Below are positions 8,223-59,375 of a DNA stretch of 64,000 nucleotides, in pieces. The notes under the pieces are model-generated. The model was not told the origin of the DNA, searched no databases, and was given only the letters and a program-made list of their open reading frames with translations. Positions within the stretch are counted from its first letter, which is position 1. Each line of letters starts with the position of its first letter. The DNA comes from a virus. The translations under genes were made by a program, and so were the position numbers. The stretch is from IMG/VR virus record IMGVR_UViG_3300022934_002729, positions 1 through 64,000 of that record. One strand, 5' to 3'.

Positions 8223-8230
8223 TATTTATT
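8223..8230 (-). promoter_or_regulatory. late-type promoter box AATAAATA (minus strand)
   Basis: On the minus strand AATAAATA overlaps the stop of the B12 radical SAM gene and precedes the start at 8205 with an AGGAG-containing leader of about 12 nt. It would let the two downstream oxygenase genes be expressed independently. Confidence 0.5.
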
Positions 8231-12112: not shown

Positions 12113-12116
12113 ATCT

Positions 12117-13707: not shown

Positions 13708-13709
13708 GA

Positions 13710-15080: not shown

Positions 15081-16208
15081 CTATTTATTAACTTTTCTTT
15101 TTGGTATTTTACTGTCTGCACTACTAACACATGCAGGTGTAGTACAAACACGTGGTCCGTCAAACAGTTTAAATCCTGTTTCTATATTACCTAGAGGAAC
15201 ATCATGACAACTGTAACTACGCTTAATACTGCCATCAGGCTCACGGATAATAATACCGCTATACCCACTCTGACACATCCATCCTTCAAACTTGTTAAAT
15301 CCGAAAGCATTAAATCTCTCCGCTTGGTCCATGTACCATTTTTTGCCTTTACTATCTGTAAATTCTACTTGCATATGCCACGGTACGCTTTTATCATTTT
15401 CGCCTATTGCATAAGGCGGCAATTCGAAACTTGGCCTTGGACGAGCGGCCCATTTTCGCTTTGACTCAGTATACGCCATTTGCGGCATACCGTTCCACAA
15501 TCGCTGTAACATTTCTTCTGTATAACCGTCCACGACTCTTGACGCCGTTGGGTCGCTTTGTGGTTTAAGGGTAACGTTGATTCCTTGTTCGTGAAAGAAC
15601 AGGGCGTTTTCCCAGTCCTTTTCAAACCACTCGGGAACCATGACCATATTGATTGTAATTTGAACATCGTGCTCCTGACACAGGATTAATTTATCTGCAA
15701 AGTCCTGCATCTTCTCACGTGTATTTAAGTGTTCTGTGTGTAAACTAGCGGTTATACTTGCTCTATGAAAGGGCTTTGCACGTTCTACATAATCTTCAAA
15801 CCATTTCATAGGACGACTACAGTTTGATGTCATATGTATGGAAGTATAATTAGTATTAGGCACATCATCAGCCAAGTAACCAAGTATGTCCAAGTACCCT
15901 GGATGAAAAGTAGGCTCACCGCCAGACAAACTAAAATGGAAACTGTTAAAACCGTTATCACGTGCTTGCCTCTTTATTTCATCAATAGTCTTAAGACATA
16001 AGTCGGTGGGTCTGTGGTCTTTACGATCTGATCGGGCGTAGGGCCAACAATAGCTGCAACGATAATTGCAAAACCTACCAAGTAACCAACTAACAGTAAA
16101 CAAATCTCTGTAAAGAAGAGTACGTTGCCCAACTTGGACAATGTCATCGTACGGAATTTTTGTAAAGTCATACTCACTCCATTTTAAATCTTCATTGGAC
16201 TCTGCCAT
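15081..16208 (-). CDS. radical SAM protein
   Basis: 375 residues. Cluster motif Cys47-x3-Cys51-x2-Cys54 (FCNYRCSYCWP), followed by SLSGGEPTF at about 94-102 and a TSNCSRP strand. The C-terminal part has several Cys (WMCQSGYSG, YSCHDVPLG, CTTPACVS), consistent with an auxiliary Fe-S cluster. It generates a 5'-deoxyadenosyl radical; the substrate is unknown. The small gene 16192-16350 overlaps its start, and two genes upstream is a QueC-like PP-loop ATPase. Confidence 0.88.
   Translation of the reverse strand: MAESNEDLKWSEYDFTKIPYDDIVQVGQRTLLYRDLFTVSWLLGRFCNYRCSYCWPYARSDRKDHRPTDLCLKTIDEIKRQARDNGFNSFHFSLSGGEPTFHPGYLDILGYLADDVPNTNYTSIHMTSNCSRPMKWFEDYVERAKPFHRASITASLHTEHLNTREKMQDFADKLILCQEHDVQITINMVMVPEWFEKDWENALFFHEQGINVTLKPQSDPTASRVVDGYTEEMLQRLWNGMPQMAYTESKRKWAARPRPSFELPPYAIGENDKSVPWHMQVEFTDSKGKKWYMDQAERFNAFGFNKFEGWMCQSGYSGIIIREPDGSIKRSYSCHDVPLGNIETGFKLFDGPRVCTTPACVSSADSKIPKRKVNK
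15082..15089 (-). promoter_or_regulatory. late-type promoter box AATAAATA, leaderless spacing (minus)
   Basis: Minus-strand AATAAATA followed by GCAAT and then the ATG at 15076: exactly 5 nt. It overlaps the end of the upstream radical SAM gene. No Shine-Dalgarno sequence fits in the gap. Confidence 0.55.
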
Positions 16209-16350
16209 CTAATCTCATTTCCAAATATTTAATAACTTGTTCAAACATTACTTTTAATTCAGTATCGTTTGTTTCTTCATACATTAATCTTACTTCTTTT
16301 AATTCTTCTTCAAATAAAGTTTTAACACTTACAATTTTATGATCAGCCAA
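16192..16350 (-). CDS. small acidic/helical protein, TTG start
   Basis: 52 residues if it starts at TTG 16350, where GGAG lies 8 nt upstream, inside the 3' end of the PP-loop gene. The protein is a charged helix (KTLFEEELKEVRLMYEE, then VMFEQVIKYLEMRLDG). Its stop overlaps the start of the radical SAM gene at 16208. It fills the only otherwise empty 140-bp gap of the operon. No family recognised; it could be a partner or regulator of the adjacent enzymes. Confidence 0.5.
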   Translation of the reverse strand: MADHKIVSVKTLFEEELKEVRLMYEETNDTELKVMFEQVIKYLEMRLDGRVQ

Positions 16351-16351
16351 A

Positions 16352-17029
16352 TTAAAATTCTCCAAATGCCCACTTACGTTCTAAGCACCACCAGCAGTTA
16401 CCACACGGAGTATTTTCAAATTTTGGGTCGTAATATTTGTAAGCAGGCATATTTTCACAACTCCTGGTTAACTGTACTAAATCTCCTACTTGATACTGTT
16501 TATACATAGATGCAATAAATCTTTTATCTACATTTATAAATGGTGTATAATAATGATTAATCCACTGTGGTTTATCTCGTCCAATTCTATAAGCAGGTTC
16601 GGGCGGATATAAATCAACTACTTCTCCGTTTATAGTTTCTGCAGTTTCTCCTTCATTTGGACACGCAGTAAGCCCAGATACAACACAATCAATGTCTTGT
16701 GTATTAAATAAGTTTTTTTCTACTGTGTCAAAGTATTCAACATTTTGTACATCTTTATAATATGAATAATGCATATTAATTTTTGTAGTATTTGTTTTAT
16801 CAATTACATAATTGATAACATCTGCTGCACGTCTACTATTCCATCTATGTTTTTCATCATTTGAACAAGTTAGAACATTTATTAAAACATCTTTATTCTC
16901 AAAATATTTTATTAACATATATAATAAAATACTACTATCAGCACCGCCACTACAACGAACTCCAATTTTTTTATACTGATCTGGTATAAAAAAATCAACT
17001 GTTTGATTATATTCGTCTGACAGTATCAT
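16352..17029 (-). CDS. QueC-like PP-loop ATPase
   Basis: 225 residues. The N-type ATP pyrophosphatase loop SGGADSS is at 27-33. The C-terminus carries a zinc-type Cys cluster: SCENMP, then PCGNCWWCLERKWAF, closely like the C...CGxCxxC of 7-cyano-7-deazaguanine synthase (QueC/ExsB). Such enzymes adenylate a carboxylate and convert it to an amide or nitrile. No QueD, FolE or QueF lies in the window, so a substrate other than deazaguanine is likely. It overlaps the SPASM radical SAM gene as TAATG. Confidence 0.8.
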   Translation of the reverse strand: MILSDEYNQTVDFFIPDQYKKIGVRCSGGADSSILLYMLIKYFENKDVLINVLTCSNDEKHRWNSRRAADVINYVIDKTNTTKINMHYSYYKDVQNVEYFDTVEKNLFNTQDIDCVVSGLTACPNEGETAETINGEVVDLYPPEPAYRIGRDKPQWINHYYTPFINVDKRFIASMYKQYQVGDLVQLTRSCENMPAYKYYDPKFENTPCGNCWWCLERKWAFGEF

Positions 17030-17991
17030 TATAATTCTTCTTTAATAAACACATCTCTTTTCATTTGTTTACATACTTGCATACAACGTGGTACTGGATT
17101 ATCACTAGTCCAACTATCTTTAATGCCTTGCCATATATCACTATTAATAGCCTGTTCGATACTTGCATTTTTTAAATTAATAGTATCATAATAATTGTTG
17201 TTTTCAATTAGTGTTTCAAAGTCGTCTTTAACTTCTCCGCTTGCAGTGTATTCCATCATTTTACTGTTTAAGTGACAGCAAGGAATAACATTACCATTAT
17301 GATTAATAAAAATTCTTTTTTGATTTCCGTACTTGCAACTAATATACGGTATTTCTGGTGCATTGTCAATCTCTTCTGTTTTTGCAGCCTTAACTGTATC
17401 TCCTTTAGATTCTTTACGATGACTAATAATAGTTTTAAATCCTTTGAATCCTTCATCAGTTGCACGTTGCTTGGCTTCTTCAAGTTGATGTTCGTTGTGT
17501 TCAAATACAATAAATTGCCAATTGCTACGGCCGCCTGCAGCATTAAATGCACGAAAGTTACGTTCTACTTTGACAAAGTTAGAACCTTCTCTGTATACTT
17601 CACTTAATTCATCACTGCCATCTATTCCCCAGGTAACTGCATGACTTGTGCCTTTGAGTATACCAGCAAGGTTTTCCCACCATTGCTCAGTCCGAGTGCT
17701 TCCGTTTGTTGCAATATTAATATGTGCACCCCAGTCTGCAAAGTACTCTACTATAGCATGAAAATCAGGGTGTGTTGTGGGTTCATCTACACTGCCACAA
17801 AAATTAATAATTTTAATTGCAGGCATTTCTTCTTTGCGAAAACGCTCACGTATGGTATCTAAACTAATATATTCTTTATTTAGAATTTTGTCTGCTTGTT
17901 TACTAAGTTCTCTAAAACAACCTTTACAACGAATATTACAAAAACTTGTAAGTTCAATATCCAACCATTCAAGCGTATCCATACTCCACAT
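17029..17991 (-). CDS. radical SAM protein with C-terminal SPASM-type module
   Basis: 320 residues from the ATG at 17991, which has AGGA 7 nt upstream; an in-frame TTG at 18018 overlaps the SDR. Cluster Cys18-x3-Cys22-x2-Cys25 (FCNIRCKGCFR). In place of GGEP there is FCGSVDEP with Cys65, a variant shared with the genes at 27068 and 29514. The C-terminal Cys set (SCKYGN, PCCHLN, RCMQVCKQ) is SPASM-like. Directly paired with a PP-loop ATPase downstream and an SDR upstream. Confidence 0.88.
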   Translation of the reverse strand: MWSMDTLEWLDIELTSFCNIRCKGCFRELSKQADKILNKEYISLDTIRERFRKEEMPAIKIINFCGSVDEPTTHPDFHAIVEYFADWGAHINIATNGSTRTEQWWENLAGILKGTSHAVTWGIDGSDELSEVYREGSNFVKVERNFRAFNAAGGRSNWQFIVFEHNEHQLEEAKQRATDEGFKGFKTIISHRKESKGDTVKAAKTEEIDNAPEIPYISCKYGNQKRIFINHNGNVIPCCHLNSKMMEYTASGEVKDDFETLIENNNYYDTINLKNASIEQAINSDIWQGIKDSWTSDNPVPRCMQVCKQMKRDVFIKEEL

Positions 17992-17992
17992 A

Positions 17993-18610
17993 TTAAAATC
18001 CTTTAGAAACTGTAGCAATACTTTTTTTAACTTTAGAAAACAGTCCAGTGGTTTTTTTATTTCTATGTTCGGTATTTTGTATCGGATCGATACTTAGTTC
18101 ATTGATAGCCAAATGCGACGGTTGTTTAAATATCCAACTTATATATTCGGCTGCTACATCAATATCCATACAAGTTCTACCAGGATGCTTTTCTTGATTA
18201 TTACTAAGTGTTCCAAAACTTATATATGTTATTTTTGGACCACTGTGCCATACATTAACTAAACCTAAACTATTGCAATAATCACGCAATGCTTTCTTTT
18301 CTGCATTGTAAAGCCAACTATTTCCTTTGCTAGTTCTATCAGTAGTACTACCAATACACACAATATGTGCGTCATTTTGAGCCTTTTTAAGTGTTTTGTA
18401 TACTGTATCTAGTAGCAAAGTTTGATTAAACTTCCACAGTGCACTGTTAATAACAACTTTGTCATGCTCTAAACAACGATCTGCAAATGCTTCTTGACCA
18501 TCTGCTTTAGTTAAATCAAAGCCAGTTGCTCTGCTACAAAACTCTGCATCTGGATAATGTAACAATAAACTTTTTGCAATTCCTTTTTCTGGATTTCCTG
18601 TAATAATCAT
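17993..18610 (-). CDS. short-chain dehydrogenase-like protein
   Basis: 205 residues. Rossmann start IITGNPEKGIAKSLL (degenerate GxxxGxG), then VINSALW (NNA-like position), a VCIGSTTDRTS strand and a Tyr-x-x-x-Lys pair in YNAEKKALRDYC. It resembles the SDR at 5756-6313 in size and order of motifs. The last ~30 residues are a basic tail (KTTGLFSKVKKSIATVSKGF). Likely NAD(P)-dependent redox step of the local radical SAM / PP-loop module. Confidence 0.65.
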   Translation of the reverse strand: MIITGNPEKGIAKSLLLHYPDAEFCSRATGFDLTKADGQEAFADRCLEHDKVVINSALWKFNQTLLLDTVYKTLKKAQNDAHIVCIGSTTDRTSKGNSWLYNAEKKALRDYCNSLGLVNVWHSGPKITYISFGTLSNNQEKHPGRTCMDIDVAAEYISWIFKQPSHLAINELSIDPIQNTEHRNKKTTGLFSKVKKSIATVSKGF

Positions 18611-18611
18611 T

Positions 18612-19247
18612 TTATATTCCTACTGTGTATGTTGTTAAATTTTTAGTTCTAGACTCAACTGTTCTTACTAATTTATTATCATCATCGAGAACATAGTTCC
18701 ACGGAACACTAGTGACTGGAAACCCAATTCCTAATAATAATTCTATGCCACCTAGTTCTGACGGTGATATACCAATTGTTGATGATATTAATTCTTTAAT
18801 TTCTTTGTTTAAAAAACATTGATTATAACCTGTTTTATATCCTAGTTGACAAGCACTCAATGCAACTGCTCCGCTACTAATACCAATTGCTGTTCTAACA
18901 TTTAAATCCCACGGATCATAGTGTCCTTCTTTATTTGTCATATCAGTAAACCCAGGTCCTTGATGCGTATTAAACCACATAAAAACAACATGTGCATCCG
19001 ACTGCGAATTTCTATCAAATGTATCTGGATTGTCTGGATCAATTGAAAATTGATATAGTTGTCTATTAATATCTTTGTCAGCAGAGACAACAAGTCTAAA
19101 ATATTCTACATTTTGTTTTGTAGGCATATTAGTTGCTATTTCAATAAGACCATTTACATGCTCAGTCGGTACCTCAATTGACTTGTCCCAATTACGCTGA
19201 CAATGATTTGCTGTTTTACTTGCTAATATTAAATTTTCTATAGTCAT
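18612..19247 (-). CDS. nitroreductase-like flavoprotein
   Basis: 211 residues. The family layout is visible: N-terminal RNWDKSIEVPTEHVNGLIE helix, TNMPTKQNVEYFRLVV (the APTSxNxQPWRFVVV-type FMN motif), and RTAIGISSGAVALSACQLGYKTG (the membrane-proximal FMN helix of nitroreductases). Members are FMN oxidoreductases using NAD(P)H; some act as dehydrogenases on peptide azolines. It lies between the SDR and a radical SAM gene in one operon. Confidence 0.72.
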   Translation of the reverse strand: MTIENLILASKTANHCQRNWDKSIEVPTEHVNGLIEIATNMPTKQNVEYFRLVVSADKDINRQLYQFSIDPDNPDTFDRNSQSDAHVVFMWFNTHQGPGFTDMTNKEGHYDPWDLNVRTAIGISSGAVALSACQLGYKTGYNQCFLNKEIKELISSTIGISPSELGGIELLLGIGFPVTSVPWNYVLDDDNKLVRTVESRTKNLTTYTVGI

Positions 19248-20452
19248 TTTGTATTCTCAAATATACTCATATCTTCAATATGCTGCGGAAGTATTTCCAT
19301 CAATGAATTACGTTCTGTTGCTTTAGGTGTACACATTCCACAACCACAGTGTTTACCTGGTCCTAGCGGACAAGTAATTACAGGCATAGTTTTATTTTCT
19401 AAGTTTGTACGTAGTTCATTGATAATATCATCGCATTTACTAATGTTTCCTATTGGTCCACGTGTTCCATCAAATCGTGCTTGACAAGTCTGGTGGTGCC
19501 ATATAGTATCTGTTTGCTGTTCAATATGTAAAAAGAACCAGTTAACACTACACTGCCAGTTACTGAACTTAGCAAATTCTAAGAATGTACTTTTACTCCA
19601 GCAGCCATCTGTGCCACAAGTTTCCATTGTGCGACTACCGCAACAGGGCCTGCCTAGTTGTCTAGCCAGTTTCTTTTCTTCTGTTTTTTCTACTTGTACA
19701 GCACCTGCTTCGTGTCCTACTTCTGCTTCTGCTTCTTCTGTAGTTTTGTTTAGTGCTGCATTTTTATTTGCCCAGTAGTCTTTCATCCACTGTAGTTGTT
19801 CATCTGTATAACGATGTGCATATGAATTTTTACTATCCTCATGCTCACCAATCATACGTGGCACGTAGCCAATACCGTCACGTTCTAATCTGGCACATAA
19901 TTCTGCACACTCATCCCAATACTCTGCGTGAAACATTACATTAATTTTAATAGGAAATTTACGTTCGTGCAATAGATATATATTATTAATAACCTGTTGT
20001 TTTAAACTATTATGTGCTTCAGCATGATAACTAATTGTCATAAAACCATAATGCTCTACAACACTATTTGCCATTTTAGGACCAAACGCACCATTACTAG
20101 TGATAGTTAAGTTCATATGAAACTTATCGCTGTGATGTTCTTTCCAAGTTGTTTTAAGCCATTCGCCAAAAGGTAAAAAATTAGGATTCGCTGTAGGCTC
20201 GCCGCCTGTAAAATTAATGTTTAATCTTTTATTTTTTTTATAAGGAAAAATTAATTCAGCATAATCAAATATAAACTGACCTGTGCGTTTCAGCGTTTCA
20301 ATATCAGCATGTGGACTAAAGTTATCGTGTCTATGCGGCGGACAATATGTACAGTCATAGTTGCAACGTCTACCTACATCCCAAGTAACTGTAAGGTTAT
20401 CTCCATCTAGCAAATTAATTGCTGTAAAATCTGTGTATTCTAAATCTTTCAT
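19244..20452 (-). CDS. radical SAM protein with Cys-rich C-terminal half
   Basis: 402 residues. Cluster Cys30-x3-Cys34-x2-Cys37 (RRCNYDCTYCPPH); NFTGGEPTANP follows. After an acidic coiled linker (EEAEAEVGHEAGAVQVEKTE) the C-terminal half has many Cys (PCCGSRTMETCGTDGCW; QTCQARF; CPLGPGKHCGCGMCTP), enough for one or two additional Fe-S clusters. It overlaps the nitroreductase-like gene by ATGA and the PP-loop gene by 4 nt, so the three are probably made together. Confidence 0.88.
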   Translation of the reverse strand: MKDLEYTDFTAINLLDGDNLTVTWDVGRRCNYDCTYCPPHRHDNFSPHADIETLKRTGQFIFDYAELIFPYKKNKRLNINFTGGEPTANPNFLPFGEWLKTTWKEHHSDKFHMNLTITSNGAFGPKMANSVVEHYGFMTISYHAEAHNSLKQQVINNIYLLHERKFPIKINVMFHAEYWDECAELCARLERDGIGYVPRMIGEHEDSKNSYAHRYTDEQLQWMKDYWANKNAALNKTTEEAEAEVGHEAGAVQVEKTEEKKLARQLGRPCCGSRTMETCGTDGCWSKSTFLEFAKFSNWQCSVNWFFLHIEQQTDTIWHHQTCQARFDGTRGPIGNISKCDDIINELRTNLENKTMPVITCPLGPGKHCGCGMCTPKATERNSLMEILPQHIEDMSIFENTK

Positions 20453-21324
20453 AAACTATTAACTTTCTTTTTTGCCCATTCACGTTCTGCACACCAATAA
20501 CAACCTCTGTCCGGGTCACTAGTAACATCCGTACATGTTACTAGTTTTGTAACTCCGTGTTTGTATTTTGAATAGTCTACAAAGTCTGTATCTGGAAACA
20601 GATTATAATCGCCTTCACATGACCTTGTTGTGTTAAGTAAATCTTCCCATCCACGTCTAACATACTGTCCTATTATAAAATCTTTGCTAATAAGTTTCCA
20701 TGGATGCACGTGCTTTGAATTTAGAGTATCTTCTCCAAACTGTGGATTTTTATCTGTGTTATCAAGTCTTTCTTGATTCCAAAATCTATCAACAGGGCTT
20801 TGTCTATGTTTAAACTCTAATTCTGGAGGATTATTAGTAATAAAACTATAAACTGCTTCTAAGTTATATGTGTAAGTTACATACTTATTAAAACTTTGTG
20901 TACATAATCTGTCACCCGACAATCCAATTTCTGATAATACCCCGTTCAGATTCCGATCATTTCTTAGAACCCCTTCTTCAATCTCAGGTGGAATAAAATT
21001 TTGTATACGTTGCATATTAACATTAGGAAACATTTCACGTATCTTGTTATAAACTTCAATACTAATAGGTCCGGCCCACGGCCTATTGTTCCAGACTCTT
21101 ATATTAGTTAAAACAAAAACTTCTGTATTATTACCAAATTTTTCAATAAGTTCTAGTAAAATACAAGTACCAACTGCACTGTCTGCTCCGCCGCTTAAAT
21201 TTACTGCAATACGCTTCCAACTCGGATCATACGGAAACAGTGCTTCATCAACTTGATGTAGTATACCAGGATCAACATTAAATTTTTCATAACAACTGTT
21301 ACTTAAACTACAATCAAATTCCAT
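20449..21324 (-). CDS. QueC-like PP-loop ATPase (second copy type)
   Basis: 291 residues from the ATG at 21324, overlapping the upstream stop by 11 nt with AGGA ahead; a TTG one codon earlier is also in frame. The PP-loop NLSGGADSAVG begins near residue 43. The C-terminus has RSCEGDYNLF and then CTDVTSDPDRGCYWCAEREWA, a divergent version of the QueC zinc motif that shares the WCxER[KE]WA ending with the gene at 16352. It is longer by ~65 residues. It sits between two radical SAM genes; probable carboxylate-activating enzyme. Confidence 0.78.
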   Translation of the reverse strand: MEFDCSLSNSCYEKFNVDPGILHQVDEALFPYDPSWKRIAVNLSGGADSAVGTCILLELIEKFGNNTEVFVLTNIRVWNNRPWAGPISIEVYNKIREMFPNVNMQRIQNFIPPEIEEGVLRNDRNLNGVLSEIGLSGDRLCTQSFNKYVTYTYNLEAVYSFITNNPPELEFKHRQSPVDRFWNQERLDNTDKNPQFGEDTLNSKHVHPWKLISKDFIIGQYVRRGWEDLLNTTRSCEGDYNLFPDTDFVDYSKYKHGVTKLVTCTDVTSDPDRGCYWCAEREWAKKKVNSL

Positions 21325-22714
21325 CAAATATTCCTTTCATTTCAGGGAATGTTGCACTAAAACTATTATTACGTTGTCTATCGCATAGTGCTAAAAACTC
21401 ACGCATTTCTGGTAGTCGTACACTCCAATCTTCGCTTTCCATAAATGATAACATACCTTCTAATCTTTTAATACCATAATCTGCATTACGCCAAGTATCA
21501 TAATCAACTTTACCTTTGTGCCAAACAGGTATTGATTTCTCCCAGTTTTCTTCCCACCAAGGATAAAACTCTTCATACTTGCGTCGACATTCTGCTTTAA
21601 ACCAAGCAGGCAATACTTTTACATTTAAGTGTGCAGGATGATACACAAAGTGATAGTTTACACCTCCTGCTCCAAATGGCCACATGTTAATTTTATGGAA
21701 GTTTTGTTCTAGTTTCCATTTAATAAAGTCTGGCAAGTAATATACATTAAGTGCTTGAACTGCACAAGCAACAGTGACTTCTACATTGTTACTTGTTTCT
21801 TTATCTAATATATGAAACACTTCCTCTGTACGTTTCCAATCACTTGGATAACGTATATAACTGTTCATTTCGTGTATACTGTCTACACTATAATGGAATC
21901 GTACGAGTTTAAATTCTTTCCACAGTTCAAACAAATCTTCACGCCATTCTACACCGTTTGAGTTATAACGTAGTTCTAAATTTTTAGCATGTCCTTGGCG
22001 TATACATTCTTCTAGTATTTCGTAATGTTCTTCGATAATAAGACTTTCGCCGCCGGCGAAGTATACTTGTTGCATATTAGGGATTTGTTCATAAAACTGT
22101 TCCCAAAACACAGAATTATTTTTGTGCCAATTATAACTGCTGCCGTTAATACTTCCTTTATCACGCCACATTGTATTTTCTTTTAGTGTTTCGTTTTGTA
22201 TTTGAGGATGTATTGCACTCCAGTCTTTGATCCAACCGCTACTATCATGCGGGCTACACATTACACAAGCAAGTTGACATTTTGTACCAAAACGTAAATC
22301 AATATACGTTAGTTCAGGCGGTACACTACCATCATCTTGTGTATTTTCCAACAAGCGATCTACATCAACTCGCTGACTCCAATATGCAGTTTCCCACTGA
22401 CGTTTACTACGATGTCCTGCTGCTTCTTCTTTAAAACATTTAATACAACTTGGCGGTATTTCGCTGTTCATCATTTGTTTACGAACATTGCGCATATATG
22501 TACTGTTCCAAGAACTTTGAAAATCCGTAATGTTTAAGTTGTTAGGACGACCTTCGTCATCTTTTAATACACCTACCATGCCGCCATGTTCTTTATCATT
22601 TGTAGGACCTACGCTACTAGCGTTAGCCGTACAACATACTCTCATTGATCCATCGGGTCGTGTACTTAAATGTACCCATGGTAATATACAAAATGTTTCA
22701 CTAGGTGTTGTCAT
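21314..22714 (-). CDS. radical SAM protein with N-terminal twitch module
   Basis: 466 residues. The N-terminal module has Cys9 (FCILPWVHLSTRPDG), Cys27-Cys28 (RVCCTA) and Cys90-x2-Cys93 (SCIKCF), the pattern of N-terminal twitch radical SAM proteins. The catalytic cluster is Cys146-x3-Cys150-x2-Cys153 (KCQLACVMCSP), and AGGESL replaces GGEP. The C-terminal ~130 residues are helical and Trp-rich and end in TFPEMKGIFDGI, a motif that recurs in other members here. Overlaps the next twitch gene by 14 nt. Confidence 0.9.
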   Translation of the reverse strand: MTTPSETFCILPWVHLSTRPDGSMRVCCTANASSVGPTNDKEHGGMVGVLKDDEGRPNNLNITDFQSSWNSTYMRNVRKQMMNSEIPPSCIKCFKEEAAGHRSKRQWETAYWSQRVDVDRLLENTQDDGSVPPELTYIDLRFGTKCQLACVMCSPHDSSGWIKDWSAIHPQIQNETLKENTMWRDKGSINGSSYNWHKNNSVFWEQFYEQIPNMQQVYFAGGESLIIEEHYEILEECIRQGHAKNLELRYNSNGVEWREDLFELWKEFKLVRFHYSVDSIHEMNSYIRYPSDWKRTEEVFHILDKETSNNVEVTVACAVQALNVYYLPDFIKWKLEQNFHKINMWPFGAGGVNYHFVYHPAHLNVKVLPAWFKAECRRKYEEFYPWWEENWEKSIPVWHKGKVDYDTWRNADYGIKRLEGMLSFMESEDWSVRLPEMREFLALCDRQRNNSFSATFPEMKGIFDGI

Positions 22715-24071
22715 TTATTATCTCGTTGAAGTTTGGTATAATATCATATACGCTTTGTTTTCTATGACTATCAAGTTGATTTGTATAATCAACACATTGT
22801 TTTCTTAGAACTTTAATATTTTTATCATTTGATTTAGCAAACCAATATTGCAATTTACCGTCTTTGTTATAGCCAATTGCTTCTGTATAAAGTGCAATAT
22901 TTACTAGTCTTGTTCTTAACGTATCTAATACACGCCAGTGATGTTGTACTTTTTCTGTTTGAATTTCTATATTTTTAATTATAGAATCTAAGTACTCTAT
23001 TGTAGGTGTGTATACATTCCAATACCATGTTTCTTTACCATGTGTATTTAACAACTTTACACTAAGGTAGTTTGGATCGTACAATAAATCTAAATCTAAT
23101 ATAAATTTATCGCACAATTCTTTTTCAATCCATTTATTAATATACCATTTAATTAATTCATCTATTTTAAAAATATTATATATTTGTATTACAGGTGTAA
23201 GATTTAAAACAGCATTTGTTTCAAGTATAAGATCTATGTTACGTTCAATTGTTGCCCAGTTACTAGGATAGCGTATATAATCATTTGTATTGTTTACACC
23301 ATCTATGCTTCCATTTATTTCTACACTATGAAAATACTTGAATAATTTTAAAAATCTTGACTGTATATTAGTTAAGTTACTAGTCAGTTTAAATCTTATT
23401 CTTTGTGCATGTCCTGTTTCAATTAGTTGTTCTGCTAGTTCATACATTTCGTCGTGTAGTGTAGGTTCTCCTCCTACAAAAGTAATTTCTTCAATGTCTG
23501 CAATACCTGTATGTAAACTCTCCCACAGACGTTTAGTATCCCATTCAGCAACTTCATAGTTCTTGTAATGTGTTGGCAATCCTTTGTCAGCAAATTGCTG
23601 TTGCTCTTTAACTATTTGACTACTAAAATGAGGCCAACACATGCGACATTTTAAATTGCACAAGTTGCTGAGTCTGATATCATAATAGCGTATACGTGGA
23701 TTTTCTACAAGTTCACGCACTGGCTCCGATAGTTTATTTTCTTTGTGTAACCATTTTTGATTTTCTTTTCTTCGCTTACTTGGTAACTCTTTTGAATGAT
23801 CACGATTCCAAGCACTGTAAAATGTTTCTTCTTCTGTCCAACATATTTTACATTCAGGTAATCTTTCATCGTTTAAAACACGCTGTCTTAGTTGTGTATA
23901 ATGATTGCTATTCCATATTTCATTGATCGTGTGCTTATTAACGTTAAACGGATTTCCGTCATCGTCACATATAACGTCATGTTTAGAAACTTTACAACAC
24001 AAACGACAGTGCCCTTCTGTTGTAGTTGCTAAGTGGATGAAAGGTAAAATGCAAAAATTCTTATTGCTCAT
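22701..24071 (-). CDS. radical SAM protein with N-terminal twitch module
   Basis: 456 residues. N-terminal Cys7 (FCILPFIHLATT), Cys25-Cys26 (RLCCKV, with an extra Cys22), Cys74-x2-Cys77 (ECKICW); radical SAM cluster Cys138-x3-Cys142-x2-Cys145 (LCNLKCRMCWP) and FVGGEPTLH. The C-terminal region is Tyr/Asn/Lys-rich and unlike its neighbour. Its start lies exactly 5 nt after a late-type box, and the start codon is part of a 16-bp inverted repeat shared with the divergent gene at 24115. Confidence 0.9.
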   Translation of the reverse strand: MSNKNFCILPFIHLATTTEGHCRLCCKVSKHDVICDDDGNPFNVNKHTINEIWNSNHYTQLRQRVLNDERLPECKICWTEEETFYSAWNRDHSKELPSKRRKENQKWLHKENKLSEPVRELVENPRIRYYDIRLSNLCNLKCRMCWPHFSSQIVKEQQQFADKGLPTHYKNYEVAEWDTKRLWESLHTGIADIEEITFVGGEPTLHDEMYELAEQLIETGHAQRIRFKLTSNLTNIQSRFLKLFKYFHSVEINGSIDGVNNTNDYIRYPSNWATIERNIDLILETNAVLNLTPVIQIYNIFKIDELIKWYINKWIEKELCDKFILDLDLLYDPNYLSVKLLNTHGKETWYWNVYTPTIEYLDSIIKNIEIQTEKVQHHWRVLDTLRTRLVNIALYTEAIGYNKDGKLQYWFAKSNDKNIKVLRKQCVDYTNQLDSHRKQSVYDIIPNFNEIINDNT

Positions 24072-28195: not shown

Positions 28196-29563
28196 ATGAG
28201 TATAAGACGAGACAGATTTCAGTGGCATAAACAAGTAACTGAAGAATTTGATTTACCAAATTTTTGTGCAAGCCCGTGGAACAGTTTACATGAAGGTCCG
28301 CAAGGATTAGTTAGTACATGTTGTAAAACACGAGAACCTATAGGTTGGAGTAGCAAACAATCATTTGAAAATATGTATAATAGTGAACATGCTAAAAGCG
28401 TCAGATCAGAGTTTTTACGTGGAGGTAGACCTGCGCAATGTGCAAGTTGTTGGGTACAAGAATCGAACGGTGAGCCTAGTTTAAACAGAGTTCACGGCAG
28501 TGATATGAGCAGTATGCCAATACTTAAAGAACTTGTAGAAAACACAGACGAAGATGGTACACTGAATATACACAAGCCTGAGTGGTTAGATCTGTTATGG
28601 ACAAGTAAATGTAACTTTGCGTGTTTAGGATGCAGTCCAGAACTTAGTAGTACTATTAATAACAAATATAAAAATGAATTTGCAATACTAAACGGCGAAG
28701 ATCCTAAAAATTATCACAGTAATATGACCAACTGGGATAACGGAACACAACACAAATTAGATTATGTATTACGGCATTCAGATACTATCCGAAGTATACA
28801 CTTAAATGGTGGCGAGCCATGGATGGCAGAAGAAACATATGAACTATTAGAAGAACTACTAAAACGAGGACTACATAAAACAATACAAATATGGAGTCAT
28901 ACAAACGGCAGCATTACAAGAAGTTACAAAGGAAAAGATATTATATCAGATTATCTTGTGCACTGGGGAGATAATTGTAAAGTTACCATGAGCAATGATG
29001 GATTTGGTAGTGTCGGTGAATATGTTCGTTATGGATACAAAGATAAGAAATGGTTAGAAACATATCATAAAGTTAGAGATGCGGGTGTAAACTTAGGAAT
29101 ACAAACTTGTTGGAATATGTTTAATGCTTTAAACTTAGATGAACTAGGAGAGTGGATTATGGATAACTGTCCTGGTAACCCACGCCTTCCGTCACCATAT
29201 AATTTAGCAGATGGTAGTTTAACTATTTGGAATAACAGAACAACACAACCTTGTATGTTAAACTATATACCAGAACTGCAGCAACGTAGCATTGCTGTAC
29301 TACAAAAACTCGAAAAAAGTAAAGTACATCCGTATAGTTGGAGAGAGTATATACCACGGTGGATAAAATGGCAGCAACAAGATCTTAGTAAGTACAAAGC
29401 AGATAATTATAAAAATTTACTAAGTTGGAAACGTGGTATAGATGCAATGGACCTTGCTCGTGGAACGGATTTGTGCACAAGCGTTCCGTTGCTAACTCCG
29501 TTATATGAATATGCTACTGAAATTGAGCGCCAAATGGATCAAACTCAGATCCACACTTCATAG
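28196..29563 (+). CDS. radical SAM protein with N-terminal twitch module
   Basis: 455 residues from the ATG at 28196 (a GTG at 28166 is excluded by the promoter position). Cys24 (FCASPWNSLHEGPQG), Cys42-Cys43 (STCCKT), Cys82-x2-Cys85 (QCASCW); catalytic Cys139-x3-Cys143-x2-Cys146 (KCNFACLGCSP); LNGGEPWM. The strand usually reading SIDG is TMSNDGFGSVGEYVRYG. Another lone plus-strand gene; its tail overlaps the convergent radical SAM gene by 50 nt. Confidence 0.9.
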   Translation: MSIRRDRFQWHKQVTEEFDLPNFCASPWNSLHEGPQGLVSTCCKTREPIGWSSKQSFENMYNSEHAKSVRSEFLRGGRPAQCASCWVQESNGEPSLNRVHGSDMSSMPILKELVENTDEDGTLNIHKPEWLDLLWTSKCNFACLGCSPELSSTINNKYKNEFAILNGEDPKNYHSNMTNWDNGTQHKLDYVLRHSDTIRSIHLNGGEPWMAEETYELLEELLKRGLHKTIQIWSHTNGSITRSYKGKDIISDYLVHWGDNCKVTMSNDGFGSVGEYVRYGYKDKKWLETYHKVRDAGVNLGIQTCWNMFNALNLDELGEWIMDNCPGNPRLPSPYNLADGSLTIWNNRTTQPCMLNYIPELQQRSIAVLQKLEKSKVHPYSWREYIPRWIKWQQQDLSKYKADNYKNLLSWKRGIDAMDLARGTDLCTSVPLLTPLYEYATEIERQMDQTQIHTS

Positions 29564-30596
29564 CACAAACGCCTAATTTTCCGTTTTCTACACTGTCTAG
29601 TTTCCAACTGTCTTCTATACTTTGTAATATGCCGCTATTAAATACATCTTCTAATCTATTTTCAAGTGCACTAATTCCTAGTTTACCTCCGGCACGATCA
29701 ATATGATCCCATATTTGTTCTACACGGTAATCTTTATGCCACCATTTGTACATACGTCCAGCAGTCCAACAACAAGGCATCAATAATCCTTCTGCTGTAA
29801 TAAAAATATTACGTTCTTCGGCTACTTTACATTTAATACTACAACTATCATAGTAGTCACGCATACTTCCGTAAGACTTTTCAATTTCTTTTTGTTTTAG
29901 CAATGCTAAGTTTTGATTTTCAACTTTAGTTGGTTTAGCAATTGCTTGTGTTTGTTCACCTTTTCTATTACGTGCTTGATGTATATCTTTTTGTTGGCTA
30001 CTTGCTGTAAAGAATCGTGCACTTTTTTTCTTTTGGAAACGCTCAACACCCCATTCTGCTGCTAGTTCTTCTGCACGTTCAACTTGATGTTCGTTATGTC
30101 CAAACACAATGTAGTCCCAACGTGCTCTACCGCCAGCATCTATAAATGCTCGCATGTTACGTTCTACGTTAGCCCAGACAACATTCTGCCTGTATAAATG
30201 ATTAGTGTCACTAAGACCATCCACGCTAAAAATAACAGTACCCATTCTACCGTAGACTTGGGCAAGTTCACGCCACCACGTTTCATCTTTTGCTCCTGCG
30301 TTTGTATTCATGCTTAACCACATTGTGGGGTTGTGTTCTCTAAAATAACGGAATACTTCTAGTGTATCTCGTGCAACAATAGGATCACCTAAGTTGCCAC
30401 ACATGTACATTGTTTTTAATTGTGCAATAAACTCTGGTTCAAATATATGTTTACAATCTTCTAAACTTAATTCAGCATTGGTAATATGACGATTGTCAGG
30501 ACCACCGTTTTCATTGCGATCACACATAGGACATGCTGCTTGACATCGTTGCGTAATTTCTAAATGCACTGTAGTTATGTCTTTGTAGTTATACAT
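29514..30596 (-). CDS. radical SAM protein with C-terminal SPASM-type module
   Basis: 360 residues from the ATG at 30596, which overlaps the upstream TGA as TGATG. Cluster Cys18-x3-Cys22-x2-Cys25 (RCQAACPMCDR); YMCGNLGDPIVAR replaces GGEP; IFSVDGLSDTNHLYRQN follows. A basic, Gln/Lys-rich insert (about residues 190-245) precedes the SPASM Cys set (SCSIKCKVAE, MPCCWT, VCAMKCGSE). Closely related in layout to the gene at 27068. It is followed upstream by a 74-residue protein and a repeat-methyltransferase fusion. Confidence 0.88.
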   Translation of the reverse strand: MYNYKDITTVHLEITQRCQAACPMCDRNENGGPDNRHITNAELSLEDCKHIFEPEFIAQLKTMYMCGNLGDPIVARDTLEVFRYFREHNPTMWLSMNTNAGAKDETWWRELAQVYGRMGTVIFSVDGLSDTNHLYRQNVVWANVERNMRAFIDAGGRARWDYIVFGHNEHQVERAEELAAEWGVERFQKKKSARFFTASSQQKDIHQARNRKGEQTQAIAKPTKVENQNLALLKQKEIEKSYGSMRDYYDSCSIKCKVAEERNIFITAEGLLMPCCWTAGRMYKWWHKDYRVEQIWDHIDRAGGKLGISALENRLEDVFNSGILQSIEDSWKLDSVENGKLGVCAMKCGSEFDPFGAQFQ

Positions 30597-30820
30597 CAAT
30601 CATCCATTATTAATTTAATATCTTTACCTGGACCGTAACGACTAGGCAAATCTCCATATTCTTCAACATACCATTCGATAACTGCTTTGTACCATAAATG
30701 ACTATTATGGTGTGCAAGTTTATTAAACTTGTAAATGTTATTGTTAGTGGCTTGCATAGTGCTCAATGCACGTGCTGCTTCTTTTTGCAGTTCTCTTACT
30801 GATAAATCATTTATATCCAA
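30596..30820 (-). CDS. small hypothetical protein
   Basis: 74 residues. Helical N-terminus (LSVRELQKEAARALSTMQ), then HHNSHLWYKAVIEWYVEEYG and a C-terminal DLPSRYGPGKD stretch. No Cys and no known motif. It overlaps the methyltransferase fusion by 14 nt and the SPASM radical SAM gene by 3 nt, so it is translationally coupled to both. It could be a small partner or substrate; no evidence beyond position. Confidence 0.6.
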   Translation of the reverse strand: MDINDLSVRELQKEAARALSTMQATNNNIYKFNKLAHHNSHLWYKAVIEWYVEEYGDLPSRYGPGKDIKLIMDD

Positions 30821-31940
30821 TTAACATAAACCTCGTATATTTTGGTAGTTTTAATTCGCCACTGTATAACAGTTGACTCATAGGAGCCATTTTTTTAAAC
30901 TCTTGTACGTTACTTACACAATTTACATGCTCGTCAATTTCATAATAATTATTACTTTGTAATACTACTAATTTACCTTTAGGTATTTTAGCATACCAAT
31001 CTTTAAAATTTTCTATATGCTCGCAACTTGTGTTGATAATTGTAGTCGGTATATCATGTATCGGTTTGCTCATCCTGTTGTTAGCATTACTCCAACACTG
31101 CCAAGTATGCTCATTATAATCAACATCTATAATATCTTGCGTAATACTTTTAAATTTCCAACTATCAACAAACCAAGGCTTATTAAATGTTTCTGCAATA
31201 TCTACACAACTTGGATCAATATCAAACGATCTAACTTTATCCAACTTAATATTACTCTCAAATAACATAGTTGCTAGTGTAGCATACCAACCTGCACACA
31301 AATATACTGTGCCTAACTCTACGTTTGCTTTTTTAAGTTCTTGTATCAGCCACAGTTTACTTTGTAATTGTCCTCTACTAAAACAATCTTTGTCTATTTC
31401 TATATCGTTGACGAAGAAACTTTTGAATGCTGTTGTGAACTGTGTGTCTATATAACCTTCTAGTATTGGCCAAAGTTTCCATTCGTTTTCTTCTGTTATT
31501 AATTTACGCAAATTATCATTTCCGATTAATCTAAAAATACTGCGCAAATTTTTATTAACAATTGCAGTTCGGTATGTGTTTACAACTTCGTCATCTTCTG
31601 GAAATAATCTGAATAGACTATATAAATTATTTTCAACAACTGCTCTACGAAGGTCATCACTGTGCCCAGAAACAGGATATTCTTCCATCAATCTAAAAAT
31701 ACTATGTAAATTTTCTTCAATAACTGCCTTGCGTATTTCTTCGTACTCATCAGTTTCGCCACACAATCTGAATATGCTACTCAAATCACGATCAATGACT
31801 GCTCTACGTAGGTCAGCAAGTTCGTCTATTTCTGGATATAGTAATTCATATCTATCCAGAAGTTCGTGTATTAGCAGTGTTGGCTTGTCAACTGTAGTTT
31901 CTTCAACAATGTCTGGCATATCAACTCGTATTAGTTTCAA
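30807..31940 (-). CDS. helical-repeat / methyltransferase fusion, TTG start
   Basis: 377 residues. Residues 44-160 contain four clear copies and one weak copy of a motif like LRRAVxxxNLxSIFRL, spaced 21-28 residues apart, which predicts a helical-hairpin array. The C-terminal half is a class I SAM methyltransferase-like Rossmann domain (TVYLCAGWYATLATMLFE; VRSFDIDPSCVDIAETF; PTTIINTSCEH). The start is TTG at 31940, forming TTGA with the upstream stop and preceded by GAGGAAG; an ATG seven codons later is an alternative. The repeats may bind a protein or sugar partner. Confidence 0.75.
   Translation of the reverse strand: MKLIRVDMPDIVEETTVDKPTLLIHELLDRYELLYPEIDELADLRRAVIDRDLSSIFRLCGETDEYEEIRKAVIEENLHSIFRLMEEYPVSGHSDDLRRAVVENNLYSLFRLFPEDDEVVNTYRTAIVNKNLRSIFRLIGNDNLRKLITEENEWKLWPILEGYIDTQFTTAFKSFFVNDIEIDKDCFSRGQLQSKLWLIQELKKANVELGTVYLCAGWYATLATMLFESNIKLDKVRSFDIDPSCVDIAETFNKPWFVDSWKFKSITQDIIDVDYNEHTWQCWSNANNRMSKPIHDIPTTIINTSCEHIENFKDWYAKIPKGKLVVLQSNNYYEIDEHVNCVSNVQEFKKMAPMSQLLYSGELKLPKYTRFMLIGYK
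31461..31811 (-). repeat. in-gene tandem repeat (LRRAV...IFRL units)
   Basis: Five degenerate units at residues 44, 69, 97, 123 and 144 of the methyltransferase fusion. Invariant features are the leading Leu/Ile-Arg, the Asn/Asp-Leu pair and the closing Ile/Leu-Phe-Arg-Leu; the fifth unit has lost most of these. Confidence 0.8.
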
Positions 31941-32653
31941 GTATCTTCCTCTAATGATAATTCAAACTGTTCACGTAACCAGTCAAAGTCATTTATAAGT
32001 TTTAATACTTTATCATTTTTACGATAATGTGTTCCAAAATCACGTCCTTGATTTGCACCCATAATAGCATACTCGCCATATTTTTTATTTTTTCCTCGAG
32101 TGCACCAAATATCTAATCTGTATTGATTATCAATGTTATCTCCATTTGGAATAATACTACTCGCAAGTTTTGTACATTCTCTAAATGCACTTTTCCATGA
32201 ATCAAATGGACTAGTATTGAATGCTGTAATATTACTAATACCAAATTGAGGTACAAAAGGACAACCCAAACTTGTACTCATATCAACGTTCCATGTACGT
32301 GCTTCTAACAATTGCTTACGTGGAAATAATTTAACACCACCGTATCCGTAAAGTAAGTCATTTACCGGATTACGACTGCGCCAAGTATATATGCAGTCTG
32401 TCTGTGGAAAGTGTCCATATTCTAATTTTGTACTTTTTGGTGTAAATTCAAAATTAAAAGTTTCTTCTATAATTGCATCTGCATCAACTACATAAAAATT
32501 GTTTGTTTCGGCAATTGTTGCAGCCGCCTGATGTGCTTTTAAAATGCCTTTTACTCCCTCAACACGCTTTGCATGGGGAGCAAACATTTTTAGTATTTCA
32601 AAATGATCATCTGCGGTTTCTTCGTAATAACTAATTTGAACAACATCTAACAT
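31937..32653 (-). CDS. glycosyltransferase-like protein
   Basis: 238 residues. A D-x-D motif at 57-59 (FYVVDADAII) fits a GT-A metal/nucleotide-sugar site. DLLYGYGGVKLFPR and the late FDSWKSAFRECTKLA segment are shared with the larger protein at 52516-53499, so the two are paralogues. The N-terminal DVVQISYYEETADD strand is like that protein's DIVYISYDEPNADE. Probable nucleotide-sugar-dependent transferase; donor and acceptor unknown. Overlaps the downstream fusion gene by ATGA-type spacing. Confidence 0.65.
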   Translation of the reverse strand: MLDVVQISYYEETADDHFEILKMFAPHAKRVEGVKGILKAHQAAATIAETNNFYVVDADAIIEETFNFEFTPKSTKLEYGHFPQTDCIYTWRSRNPVNDLLYGYGGVKLFPRKQLLEARTWNVDMSTSLGCPFVPQFGISNITAFNTSPFDSWKSAFRECTKLASSIIPNGDNIDNQYRLDIWCTRGKNKKYGEYAIMGANQGRDFGTHYRKNDKVLKLINDFDWLREQFELSLEEDT

Positions 32654-52515: not shown

Positions 52516-53499
52516 TTATTCCTCTACTGAGTCTTTTACTTGATCTTCTCTAACCTGAGGACCTAGCCGACTTGGATTTCTATATACAGTTTTCCAAAAA
52601 CGTGAACCTTCTGTTCCGATATCTGCAATTTCTAAGTCTAGTTTTCCCTTTAGTTCGTTACCTAGTTCTACTGTACGTGATTTTAACTTATCGATATTCC
52701 AATTAACACCAGTGCGTGGACATAACTCAGTACCGTCTTCAAACTGCGGAAGTAATTCTGTATTAAAGTAATTACTCAACCAATCAAAATCACGTACATT
52801 ACGCCAATCCCAATCTTCTCTAGTAATGTTTGTCATGTATGCTCCGAGTCTAGCACCATAAATTGCCCATAAGCCATTTGTAGTATCTTCACCGACTGTC
52901 ATCCACACCATAAGACGTCTATAATTTTCTTGAAAGATATGTTTGAGTCTCCCAGGATCAACTACATCACCGTCTTCTAATCCCATTTTTACACCTTCAC
53001 GAAAACCAGCACGCCACGCTTGTAGTGGACTACCATTGTTGTGTACCCACGAATACCAATTGTTCATTTGTACATAGTGAATGTTCCAGCAGAAGTCAAC
53101 TTGTGCACGTTTATCACTTTCGGGTGCTGCTTCATGTGTGCGCATACGATTTACAACGTCAACCGGCCACATTTTAATACCACCGTTGCCGTATACTAAT
53201 CCGTTTACTACATTTTTTGCTGCAAAACTAATAACATGATTAGGTGCAATTCTATCCATATCTAGTTCAACATTGAAAAAATCGTCGTTAACAATATTAT
53301 CAGCATCAACTGTGATAAAACGTTCAGTTTCACTTAGTGCAGCGGCGGCCTTGTGTGCTGCATCACTGCCCCATACTCCGTGACTACGTTTAGCCCAGGG
53401 ACATTTTTCTAATAGATCTGCATAGTTTTCATCTGCATTTGGTTCGTCATAACTGATGTATACTATATCAAAATCGTTAATACTTACCAGATTCGGCAT
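52516..53499 (-). CDS. glycosyltransferase-like protein
   Basis: 327 residues from the ATG at 53499, which has GAAGGA 7 nt upstream (a TTG at 53514 is also in frame). D-x-D at 65-67 (FITVDADNIVNDDFF), GLVYGNGGIKMWP and WRAGFREGVKMGLEDGD are shared with the shorter paralogue at 31937-32653. The C-terminal ~80 residues (WNIDKLKSRTVELGNELKG) are extra. Probable GT-A type transferase. The gene lies between the radical SAM cluster and the structural genes. Confidence 0.65.
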   Translation of the reverse strand: MPNLVSINDFDIVYISYDEPNADENYADLLEKCPWAKRSHGVWGSDAAHKAAAALSETERFITVDADNIVNDDFFNVELDMDRIAPNHVISFAAKNVVNGLVYGNGGIKMWPVDVVNRMRTHEAAPESDKRAQVDFCWNIHYVQMNNWYSWVHNNGSPLQAWRAGFREGVKMGLEDGDVVDPGRLKHIFQENYRRLMVWMTVGEDTTNGLWAIYGARLGAYMTNITREDWDWRNVRDFDWLSNYFNTELLPQFEDGTELCPRTGVNWNIDKLKSRTVELGNELKGKLDLEIADIGTEGSRFWKTVYRNPSRLGPQVREDQVKDSVEE

Positions 53500-54493
53500 A
53501 TTCCAATCCTTCAAATTTAAAGGTAATATTTTTACCTTCGGGTCCTAATAATATTTTACAAGTTGTAGGATCAACTTTTGTTTTTACAATATATTCTTGA
53601 TTTCTTCCAATGCTATCATATGGTATGCTAATTCTGTCTAACAATATATTTGGGTTGTTACCAGTTAAGAACATATTAATATCTTTGTATATTTTATAAT
53701 CATGCGGATCATTGAAATTACTACGTATAATCCATCCTTGTGTACTCGGACTTACACTAAACGTTGCAAATTCTTCTGCTGTACTGTCTTTAACATAAGT
53801 ATGGAATCGTTTGTTATTTTGTGCTAGTCCATAATCTACTGTAACATAGTTTTGTTTAATTTTCAAGCCATAACTTTTAAAAATACGTCTTGTTAATATA
53901 TCAATGTCACCGAGTGCTATTGTATTCCGTAAATTAGAAAAATCATACAATATGTATCCTTTTTGTATTAGTTCAATCGGATCTATTTCAATGGTTTCAA
54001 GCAAACGAAGAGGATTGTTTTTTTCAATAATATACAGTGTTATTTTTTCATAGGTCTTGTCTTTTTGTATTTTAACTTCACTTGAATTAATCTTTCCAGT
54101 TAACTGATATACTAAATCTGTGCTAACATTTATTTCTACTTTATAGTCACTTAAATATAAAATAATGTTAACATCTTTGTTTACAGTTGGCTTAACAAAA
54201 GGAATTTTACTAAGATAATTTTCTGCTTGTTTTATTCGTATATAGTTTTTCTTTTCAACTAGTTTGTATCCATCAACTAAGTCTGCTACAATATATTTTT
54301 TAGTATTTTTAATACCTTTCATGAGATCAGCAACAACAGGATCACTTGTTTTTAAATAAGGATCCTTAATGTCATCTCTTGATTTTCCAGAGATAACGGT
54401 TATGTTTCCAGTCCACTCATTGAAGTATACATAATAATTATGCGGCTTCTTCTTTTTGGATTTTTGTATTATTAAACTTGTTTCTAAGCTCAT
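53477..54493 (-). CDS. unknown protein, probably virion-associated
   Basis: 338 residues, beta-rich, with no enzyme motif (YYVYFNEWTGNITVISGK; ILYLSDYKVEINVSTDLVY; GWIIRSNFNDPHDYKIY). The repeated short strands and polar surface suggest a tail, baseplate or fibre-associated protein. The start overlaps the preceding glycosyltransferase-like gene by 56 nt; no better in-frame ATG exists before residue 57. Coupled downstream by a 23-nt overlap. Confidence 0.6.
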   Translation of the reverse strand: MSLETSLIIQKSKKKKPHNYYVYFNEWTGNITVISGKSRDDIKDPYLKTSDPVVADLMKGIKNTKKYIVADLVDGYKLVEKKNYIRIKQAENYLSKIPFVKPTVNKDVNIILYLSDYKVEINVSTDLVYQLTGKINSSEVKIQKDKTYEKITLYIIEKNNPLRLLETIEIDPIELIQKGYILYDFSNLRNTIALGDIDILTRRIFKSYGLKIKQNYVTVDYGLAQNNKRFHTYVKDSTAEEFATFSVSPSTQGWIIRSNFNDPHDYKIYKDINMFLTGNNPNILLDRISIPYDSIGRNQEYIVKTKVDPTTCKILLGPEGKNITFKFEGLEYAESGKY

Positions 54494-56221: not shown

Positions 56222-56569
56222 TTACCAATCCATAATTTTTTTAATATTACGTGCTTTTTTAATCTTATCCATTTGAATTTTGTATTCATTACTGGCTTCA
56301 GTATATGCACTAATTAAACTATCTTTAAACTCGGACAGATCATCAATCTCAATTGGATTTTCTTTTGTATCAATTACAATAGCATTTTTTTTATCTGACC
56401 GTAATAACGCATCAACAAAACTGATAGTTTTTTCATCGGCAACAAACGATCCAGTTTTATACTGAACCGATTGTAATACTTGCATACGTGATCTGATATT
56501 ACGTTTTTGATTAGATAGCGTTGTGCGGTAATTTGCAAATTCGAGGGCTTTCTCGAGTCTCTCATCCAT
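56222..56569 (-). CDS. conserved-type hypothetical phage protein
   Basis: 115 residues, preceded by AAGGAG and a sigma70-type promoter. Helical N-terminus (ERLEKALEFANYRTTLSNQ), a central TISFVDALLRSD and a Lys-rich C-terminal helix ending KARNIKKIMDW. It has the look of a small coiled structural or chaperone protein. Not assigned to a family. Confidence 0.65.
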   Translation of the reverse strand: MDERLEKALEFANYRTTLSNQKRNIRSRMQVLQSVQYKTGSFVADEKTISFVDALLRSDKKNAIVIDTKENPIEIDDLSEFKDSLISAYTEASNEYKIQMDKIKKARNIKKIMDW

Positions 56570-59367: not shown

Positions 59368-59375
59368 TATTTATA
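59368..59375 (-). promoter_or_regulatory. late promoter box TATAAATA (perfect T4 consensus, minus)
   Basis: Perfect TATAAATA on the minus strand, overlapping the stop codon of the giant structural gene and followed by a 21-nt leader to the ATG at 59346. It would drive the three smaller structural genes. Confidence 0.65.

Follow-up and report, generated by a model that had tools for sequence, protein, structure and literature searches.

Gene cassettes encoding radical SAM (rSAM) enzymes have been noted before in marine T4-like phages, where they have gone unexplained. PMC7029224 describes pelagimyophages whose host recognition cluster contains such cassettes, and PMC5332604 reports one marine T4-like viral genome with 12 rSAM genes. 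Here, we describe an operon of rSAM, PP-loop, and redox genes at positions 15,081 to 22,714 of a 64,000-nucleotide stretch of viral DNA (the window) from IMG/VR record IMGVR_UViG_3300022934_002729. That record runs to 68,869 bases, so the virus's own genome is represented by a fragment. The virus is a T4-like aquatic/marine bacteriophage, and the operon sits inside a mosaic, cassette-like island that is linked to the tail-fiber genes and has a deeply conserved core. As in the two published cases, tail fibers, GT8 genes, and rSAM cassettes share one hypervariable region. We did not find in the available parts of those papers the PP-loop family, the conserved rSAM core, an rSAM–PP-loop fusion, or bacterial chromosomal copies, all of which are described below. 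The original prediction, made from the letters of this stretch, had read the operon as a possible amide- or nitrile-forming module built on two QueC-like PP-loop proteins.

A tail-fiber-linked island with a conserved radical SAM core

We compared the island across 80 viral loci drawn by gene 52516 alone (genes without a name are given by their first coordinate in the window; Table 1). Gene order is nearly constant: 57832, 56637 (the fiber gene), 56222, 55316, 54438, 53477 or a protein of similar size, 52516, and often 31937, with a protein bearing the fiber motif F[FL]NxGGx[IVLF] in 56 of the 80 loci. Short versions of the island end after 31937. Long versions go on with 30807, 30596, 29514, 27068, 21314, a PP-loop gene, rSAM-B types, and rSAM-A, and one locus (L192) runs unbroken from fiber to rSAM-A, PP-loop gene included. 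The genes 15081 (rSAM-A), 21314, and 29514 form a conserved rSAM core added to the fiber/GT8 backbone, with variable rSAM, PP-loop, nitroreductase, and SDR genes between them. At least 506 relatives of rSAM-A are found among 600 viral candidate stretches, the best 80 at 61–89% identity; mean column identity across 18 diverse sequences is 74%, and the window and L003 copies differ by 64 synonymous and 2 non-synonymous codon changes.

The family of 54438 and 55316 matches glycogenin (E 5e-6), which identifies these proteins as GT8-type glycosyltransferases; the D-x-D motif of that family is conserved (D116/D118). This likeness to glycogenin is one of sequence and does not imply self-glucosylation or a tyrosine acceptor for 54438 and 55316. 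A D-x-D motif is also conserved in 52516 and 31937, which have no structural match in the PDB and no detectable known relative. The T4-type late promoter sequence TATAAATA is depleted on both strands of the window (2 sites, 12.4 expected), and one of the two copies precedes the 58774 start by about 22 bases, at the fiber operon's head. Across the 80 loci, 46 of 71 such sites are near gene starts, mostly those of fiber-operon genes (12 of 34 for 58774), and none is found at the 191 rSAM genes. This placement fits read-through from late fiber promoters, without proving it.

All the operon genes that the original prediction had named are present on the minus strand where it had placed them, and its two PP-loop proteins with rSAM neighbors are real, as judged by open reading frames (ORFs), Pfam, and recurrence. 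The genes are tightly packed, with overlaps of 1–26 bases, except that the nitroreductase-family (NTR) and SDR genes are one base apart. Twi (21314) overlaps PPloop-B by 14 nt, PPloop-B overlaps rSAM-B and rSAM-B overlaps NTR by 4 nt each, the rSAM gene 17029 overlaps PPloop-A by 1 nt, and a small ORF overlaps PPloop-A by 14 nt and rSAM-A by 17 nt. The predicted NTR, SDR, and small protein all exist, with two corrections: the NTR and SDR match their families below cut-off, and the small protein has 57 residues, from a TTG start, rather than 52. The NTR scores 19.0 against PF00881 (gathering cut-off 23.5), and its homologs match that family clearly (40.9 and 43.5; up to E 5e-11). SDR homologs (50–68%) adjoin rSAM-A in many loci. 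Apart from the window, only L003 and L222 have the 57-aa ORF, and L091 matches it in part. The operon's gene order is repeated in independent contigs: L003 (proteins 82–99% identical to the window's), L221/L222, and L006–L009, the last of which carry the same phage region; an arrangement that recurs in this way is not due to chance.

The predicted tie between PP-loop and rSAM genes also holds. In loci drawn by rSAM-A, same-strand contact with an rSAM gene was counted for genes inside rSAM spans: it holds for 40 of 44 PP-loop genes, whereas the figure for non-rSAM genes of all kinds is 99 of 145 (permutation p 0.006). PPloop-B-type genes (at least 270 aa) and rSAM-B types occur together in 12 of 15 loci versus 4 of 63 otherwise (Fisher 1.6e-8, uncorrected for kinship), and L022 encodes a natural fusion, in which one half of a single 832-residue protein is a twitch rSAM and the other a PPloop-B. 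A sample drawn by PP-loop genes alone comprised 32 that adjoin an rSAM gene, 2 that adjoin another PP-loop gene, and 46 that adjoin neither. Obligate coupling was rejected on account of these 46, among them a group beside terminase gp17; standalone copies in T4-like phages (L232, L246, L253, and others) adjoin terminase, RNase H, or helicase genes. We conclude that PP-loop/rSAM coupling in the islands is real and not obligate.

The window encodes 18 proteins longer than 280 aa that have a CxxxCxxC motif and group with rSAM enzymes. rSAM-A has four extra C-terminal cysteines (Cys312/334/355/360), likely an auxiliary cluster. Its predicted structure (mean pLDDT 80) reaches TM-scores of at most 0.50, to viperin, BlsE, and SPASM peptide enzymes, and its sole sequence-profile match in the PDB is a sulfatase-maturating enzyme, which it matches along the initial part of the barrel. 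Against N_Twi_rSAM (NF033640, cut-off 170), 21314 (409.6 bits) and 22701 (309 bits) score as members, whereas 15081, 17029, 19244, 27068, and 29514 fall below the cut-off.

The island is flanked on one side by genes 214–5193, which by sequence include a vWA-like protein, DHFR, and thymidylate synthase, and on the other by virion proteins (56637–63693). A second conserved block at 5205–14360 encodes Asp/Asn hydroxylases, TauD, a fatty acid desaturase, a methyltransferase, and others; in L003, L063, and L221 it accompanies the rSAM operon. Among INPHARED phages, the operon DNA has no near-identity match, and tblastn with PPloop-A, PPloop-B, rSAM-A, and Twi 21314 returned no match.

Table 1. Features of the operon and island in the window, by position.
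Feature	Position	Strand	Basis or remark
rSAM-A, near-invariant radical SAM enzyme, CNYRCSYC	15081..16208	-	Pfam Radical_SAM E 3.7e-15
57-aa ORF, TTG start	16192..16365	-	overlaps both neighbors; no family match
PPloop-A, 225 aa, QueC-superfamily PP-loop protein	16352..17029	-	Zn-Cys4
Radical SAM/SPASM protein	17029..18018	-	Pfam Radical_SAM (E 5.3e-11) and SPASM, above cut-off
SDR-like oxidoreductase	17993..18610	-	NCBIfam TniO-like SDR E 4.4e-5, below cut-off
Nitroreductase-family flavoprotein (NTR)	18612..19247	-	PF00881 E 0.0017, below cut-off
rSAM-B, CNYDCTYC, Cys-rich C-terminus	19244..20452	-	Pfam Radical_SAM E 9.1e-8
PPloop-B, 292 aa, long PP-loop subfamily	20449..21327	-	alignment and tree; L022 fusion
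N-terminal-twitch radical SAM protein (Twi), conserved core member	21314..22714	-	NF033640 409.6 bits
N-terminal-twitch radical SAM protein	22701..24071	-	NF033640 309 bits
Radical SAM protein, conserved core member	29514..30599	-	Pfam E 3.7e-9
74-aa small conserved protein	30596..30820	-	homologs 44–76%, same position in other loci
Core protein, class-I methyltransferase-like by eye	30807..31940	-	no Pfam match; kept in phage and Bdellovibrionota loci
Core protein, D-x-D motif, family of 52516	31937..32653	-	no Pfam or PDB match
Core protein, D-x-D motif	52516..53514	-	593 viral relatives
GT8 glycogenin-like glycosyltransferase	54438..55319	-	family profile vs glycogenin, E 5e-6
GT8 glycogenin-like glycosyltransferase	55316..56221	-	same 54438/55316 family
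115-aa protein between fiber and GT8 genes	56222..56569	-	synteny
Tail-fiber-like protein, AYGYGYGYGY tract	56637..57830	-	synteny
Virion/tail-fiber-type protein	57832..58761	-	PHROG tail fiber E 1.4e-4 and others
TATAAATA, T4-type late promoter match	59368..59375	-	upstream of 58774

The PP-loop proteins and QueC

Both PP-loop proteins of the window carry SGGADS and a C-terminal, Cys-rich C..C.ER motif. PPloop-A matches PF06508 over its C-terminal 64 residues only (E 7.6e-7); PPloop-B alone has no Pfam or NCBIfam match and is placed in the family by alignment and tree. Across 44 aligned copies, SGGxDS (invariant), K169, TxSC, and C-x2-C-x2-C-x-ER are held in common, and the zinc cysteines C191, C209, C212, and C215 are invariant, with a first spacing wider than in QueC. 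The predicted structure of PPloop-A (pLDDT 92.7) matches PP-loop proteins broadly, including MnmA, Cap9, TilS, and LarE, with Cap9 giving the highest TM-score (0.50) among the top matches. Profile-profile comparison with canonical QueC gave a probability of 97.8%, over the C-terminal 66 columns only.

The family shares with QueC (PF06508) the SGGxDS loop, the P-x5-K lysine, four zinc cysteines ending CGxCxxC..R, and a similar length. It differs in having GxTxNPP and CWWCxER, and when aligned to canonical QueC from Bdellovibrionota and other genomes it lacks YxQxHxxE, VPxRN, YPDC, and SCY; the SCY position is SCE or other, and the Y189-type Tyr is lost. The substrate-motif residues and the zinc-region Tyr (Y189) are essential for QueC activity (PMC13329287). 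Because the residues that QueC needs for preQ0 are lost, the active-site comparison does not indicate the nitrile product that had been suggested. Canonical QueC forms one separate clade (support 100/99) in a 117-row tree, on a branch of 2.1, a length that calls for long-branch caution. Island and standalone PP-loops are intermixed in this tree yet clustered (16 changes versus 38.5 when shuffled), with PPloop-A and PPloop-B in different subclades. Since the ATP loop and zinc cysteines are kept, the substrate motifs are lost, and the clades are separate, these proteins are QueC-like at the level of the superfamily and are not QueC; on alignment and phylogeny, they form a clade of their own within it. 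QatC/Cap9 offers a parallel in which a QueC-superfamily scaffold is repurposed for another acceptor, and in QatC, too, the QueC motifs are gone and the first Cys spacing is wide (PMC13329287). However, the window's match to QatC reaches 12.4 bits against an NCBIfam cut-off of 280, a PADLOC scan of the focal proteins returned no Qat gene, and no Qat/CBASS partner genes were recognized. Separately, L014 (6642–8964) carries three different PP-loop genes in tandem ahead of rSAM-A.

As the original prediction had supposed, the deazaguanine pathway appears not to accompany the PP-loop genes. In 12 long related phage records with the PP-loop family, we found TGT in none (by a model that may miss DpdA), QueD-type PTPS in 2, FolE in 6, and canonical QueC in none, with partial QueC matches only, of the size and kind that the PP-loop family itself gives. 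No queD, queE, folE, or TGT gene was recognized within the window, itself drawn from a fragment. The parallel that had been drawn to QueE did not hold: the rSAM partners are of SPASM/twitch type, 375–402 aa long with extra cysteines, and a QueE-like PHROG matches them more weakly than generic rSAM PHROGs. Deazaguanine synthesis by the PP-loop/rSAM operon is thus not supported.

Copies of the core in bacterial chromosomes

Among 84,980 species genomes scanned for rSAM-A, it was found on Bdellovibrionota contigs (up to 936 kb) at 56–66% identity. Most of these loci that are long enough have relatives of 21314 (53–62%) and 29514 (35–46%) within 8 kb of rSAM-A, and relatives of 31937/52516 or 30807 likewise. 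On the Bdellovibrionota chromosome L100, the core locus adjoins trmD, rimM, pheS, and pheT, and next to rSAM-A are found, in phage order, a fiber gene, 56222, 55316, 54438, a 53477-like gene, 52516, and two rSAM genes. The matches in L090, L091, L103, and L105 look like phage contigs binned into genomes, and those in Elusimicrobia are distant (22–27% identical to rSAM-A). Clusters of several rSAM proteins, 19–30% identical to rSAM-A, occur in Elusimicrobia loci L116–L133.

Bacterial relatives of the PP-loop proteins sit in biosynthetic settings (L321–L324). In Bdellovibrionota, a PP-loop gene lies between CysC/CysD-like and CysN-like genes and a sulfotransferase-like gene, and a twitch rSAM gene comes next (L321, 14236–19899; L324). 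One bacterial contig has two PP-loop genes among eight rSAM genes and a B12-type rSAM gene (L322, 509–13640), and in L323 a PP-loop relative accompanies carbamoyltransferase, aconitase, and HMGL genes. According to PMC10769870, prey recognition by the predator Bdellovibrio uses chimeric fiber proteins; a fiber technology shared with phages is thus conceivable.

Possible products and targets of the island

The probable role of the enzyme kit is to decorate a surface structure with unusual chemical groups. We tentatively read the operon as an exchangeable part of an island for surface decoration that is attached to the tail-fiber operon of a T4-like phage, with the fiber as the likeliest target. 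The rSAM enzymes would carry out C-H chemistry, acting on an intermediate borne by a sugar or a peptide. By analogy with the QueC superfamily and other PP-loop ligases, the PP-loop proteins may activate a carboxylate with ATP, and the resulting acyl-adenylate could be passed to an amine or ammonia to give an amide-type bond. The flavin and SDR enzymes would adjust redox state, and the glycosyltransferases would attach or extend the product, most likely on the phage's own fiber/adhesin, where it might alter host binding or hide the fiber from host or competitor factors. Support for this reading comes from the synteny of fiber, GT8, 52516, and 31937 genes, the glycogenin match of the GT8 family, selection on rSAM-A, the adjacency and fusion of rSAM and PP-loop genes, the L100 block, the biosynthetic settings in bacteria, and TATAAATA at fiber-gene starts. 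Reading the operon as a self-contained amide/nitrile module is not supported, as the operon is one exchangeable block of a larger fiber/glycosyltransferase-linked island and standalone PP-loops exist.

Several observations weigh against fiber decoration. The fiber is a candidate substrate only, and opposite-strand genes separate the focal operon from the fiber operon, so the two need not be co-transcribed. PP-loops also occur alone, so the rSAM product is not needed everywhere. A fiber relative was found in only 1 of 14 core-carrying Bdellovibrionota genomes; the target of the core there must therefore be something else, and the fiber as a universal substrate is unsupported in bacteria. Finally, (YG)n tracts occur in 11 of 52 fiber relatives, which with a single exception belong to the clade nearest the window's protein, and an association of the tract with rSAM number (p 0.0003) was discounted because of this restriction. 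A more elaborate version, in which swapped rSAM/PP-loop arrays put glycosylated, amidated, and radical-modified decorations on phage fibers, possibly on Tyr-Gly tracts, with Bdellovibrionota applying the same core to surface fibers of their own, is doubtful.

The island could instead remodel the host surface, building or altering an O-antigen, capsule, or lipid sugar so as to block superinfection. PMC7029224 proposes such a role for GT8 genes in pelagimyophage host-recognition clusters; a nucleotidyltransferase, a fatty acid desaturase, and a carbamoyltransferase of the NodU type are encoded in the island; and in Bdellovibrionota the core loci of L109 and L097 lie among GT2, sugar-epimerase-like, acyltransferase-like, and AsnB-like genes. 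However, the tightest and most constant linkage is to tail-fiber genes, and a T4-type late-promoter match stands ahead of the fiber operon, so we regard this explanation as possible but rather unlikely. A diffusible natural product, such as an rSAM-tailored peptide or amino-acid derivative, would suit the combination of rSAM/SPASM and PP-loop proteins with SDR, nitroreductase, methyltransferase, and aminotransferase-like genes, which resembles a biosynthetic cluster, as well as the small ORF within the operon and the aconitase and HMGL genes of L323. That ORF is absent from most related islands, however, and no export or resistance gene was recognized among the proteins searched, making such a product unlikely.

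Two further possibilities appear much less probable. A nucleotide-analogue or defense function like that of viperin is suggested by matches of rSAM-A, rSAM-B, and 17029 to viperin models (E 1e-10 to 1e-12) and by the structural similarity of rSAM-A to viperin, but the island rSAMs score 37.5–42 bits, about 40, against the NCBIfam cut-off of 180, and only the barrel is shared. Viperin is not known to carry extra C-terminal cysteines such as those of rSAM-A, and we consider this function very improbable. A deazaguanine variant that modifies DNA, tRNA, or protein (NDG) would account for the QueC-superfamily fold and zinc site and for the FolE and PTPS genes of some related records; it is the least credible of these explanations, given the complete absence of QueC substrate motifs, the lack of TGT and canonical QueC in all 12 records, rSAM partners that are not QueE-like, and no QatC match above cut-off.

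Under the fiber-decoration reading that we favor, the question of what these phages make is reduced to a few expressible enzymes and one candidate substrate. The island adds a new branch to the QueC scaffold and gives the rSAM cassettes of marine T4-like phages an anatomy: a backbone of tail-fiber, GT8, and D-x-D proteins, a near-invariant rSAM core held in common with Bdellovibrionota chromosomes, and, alongside it, a new clade of the QueC superfamily.

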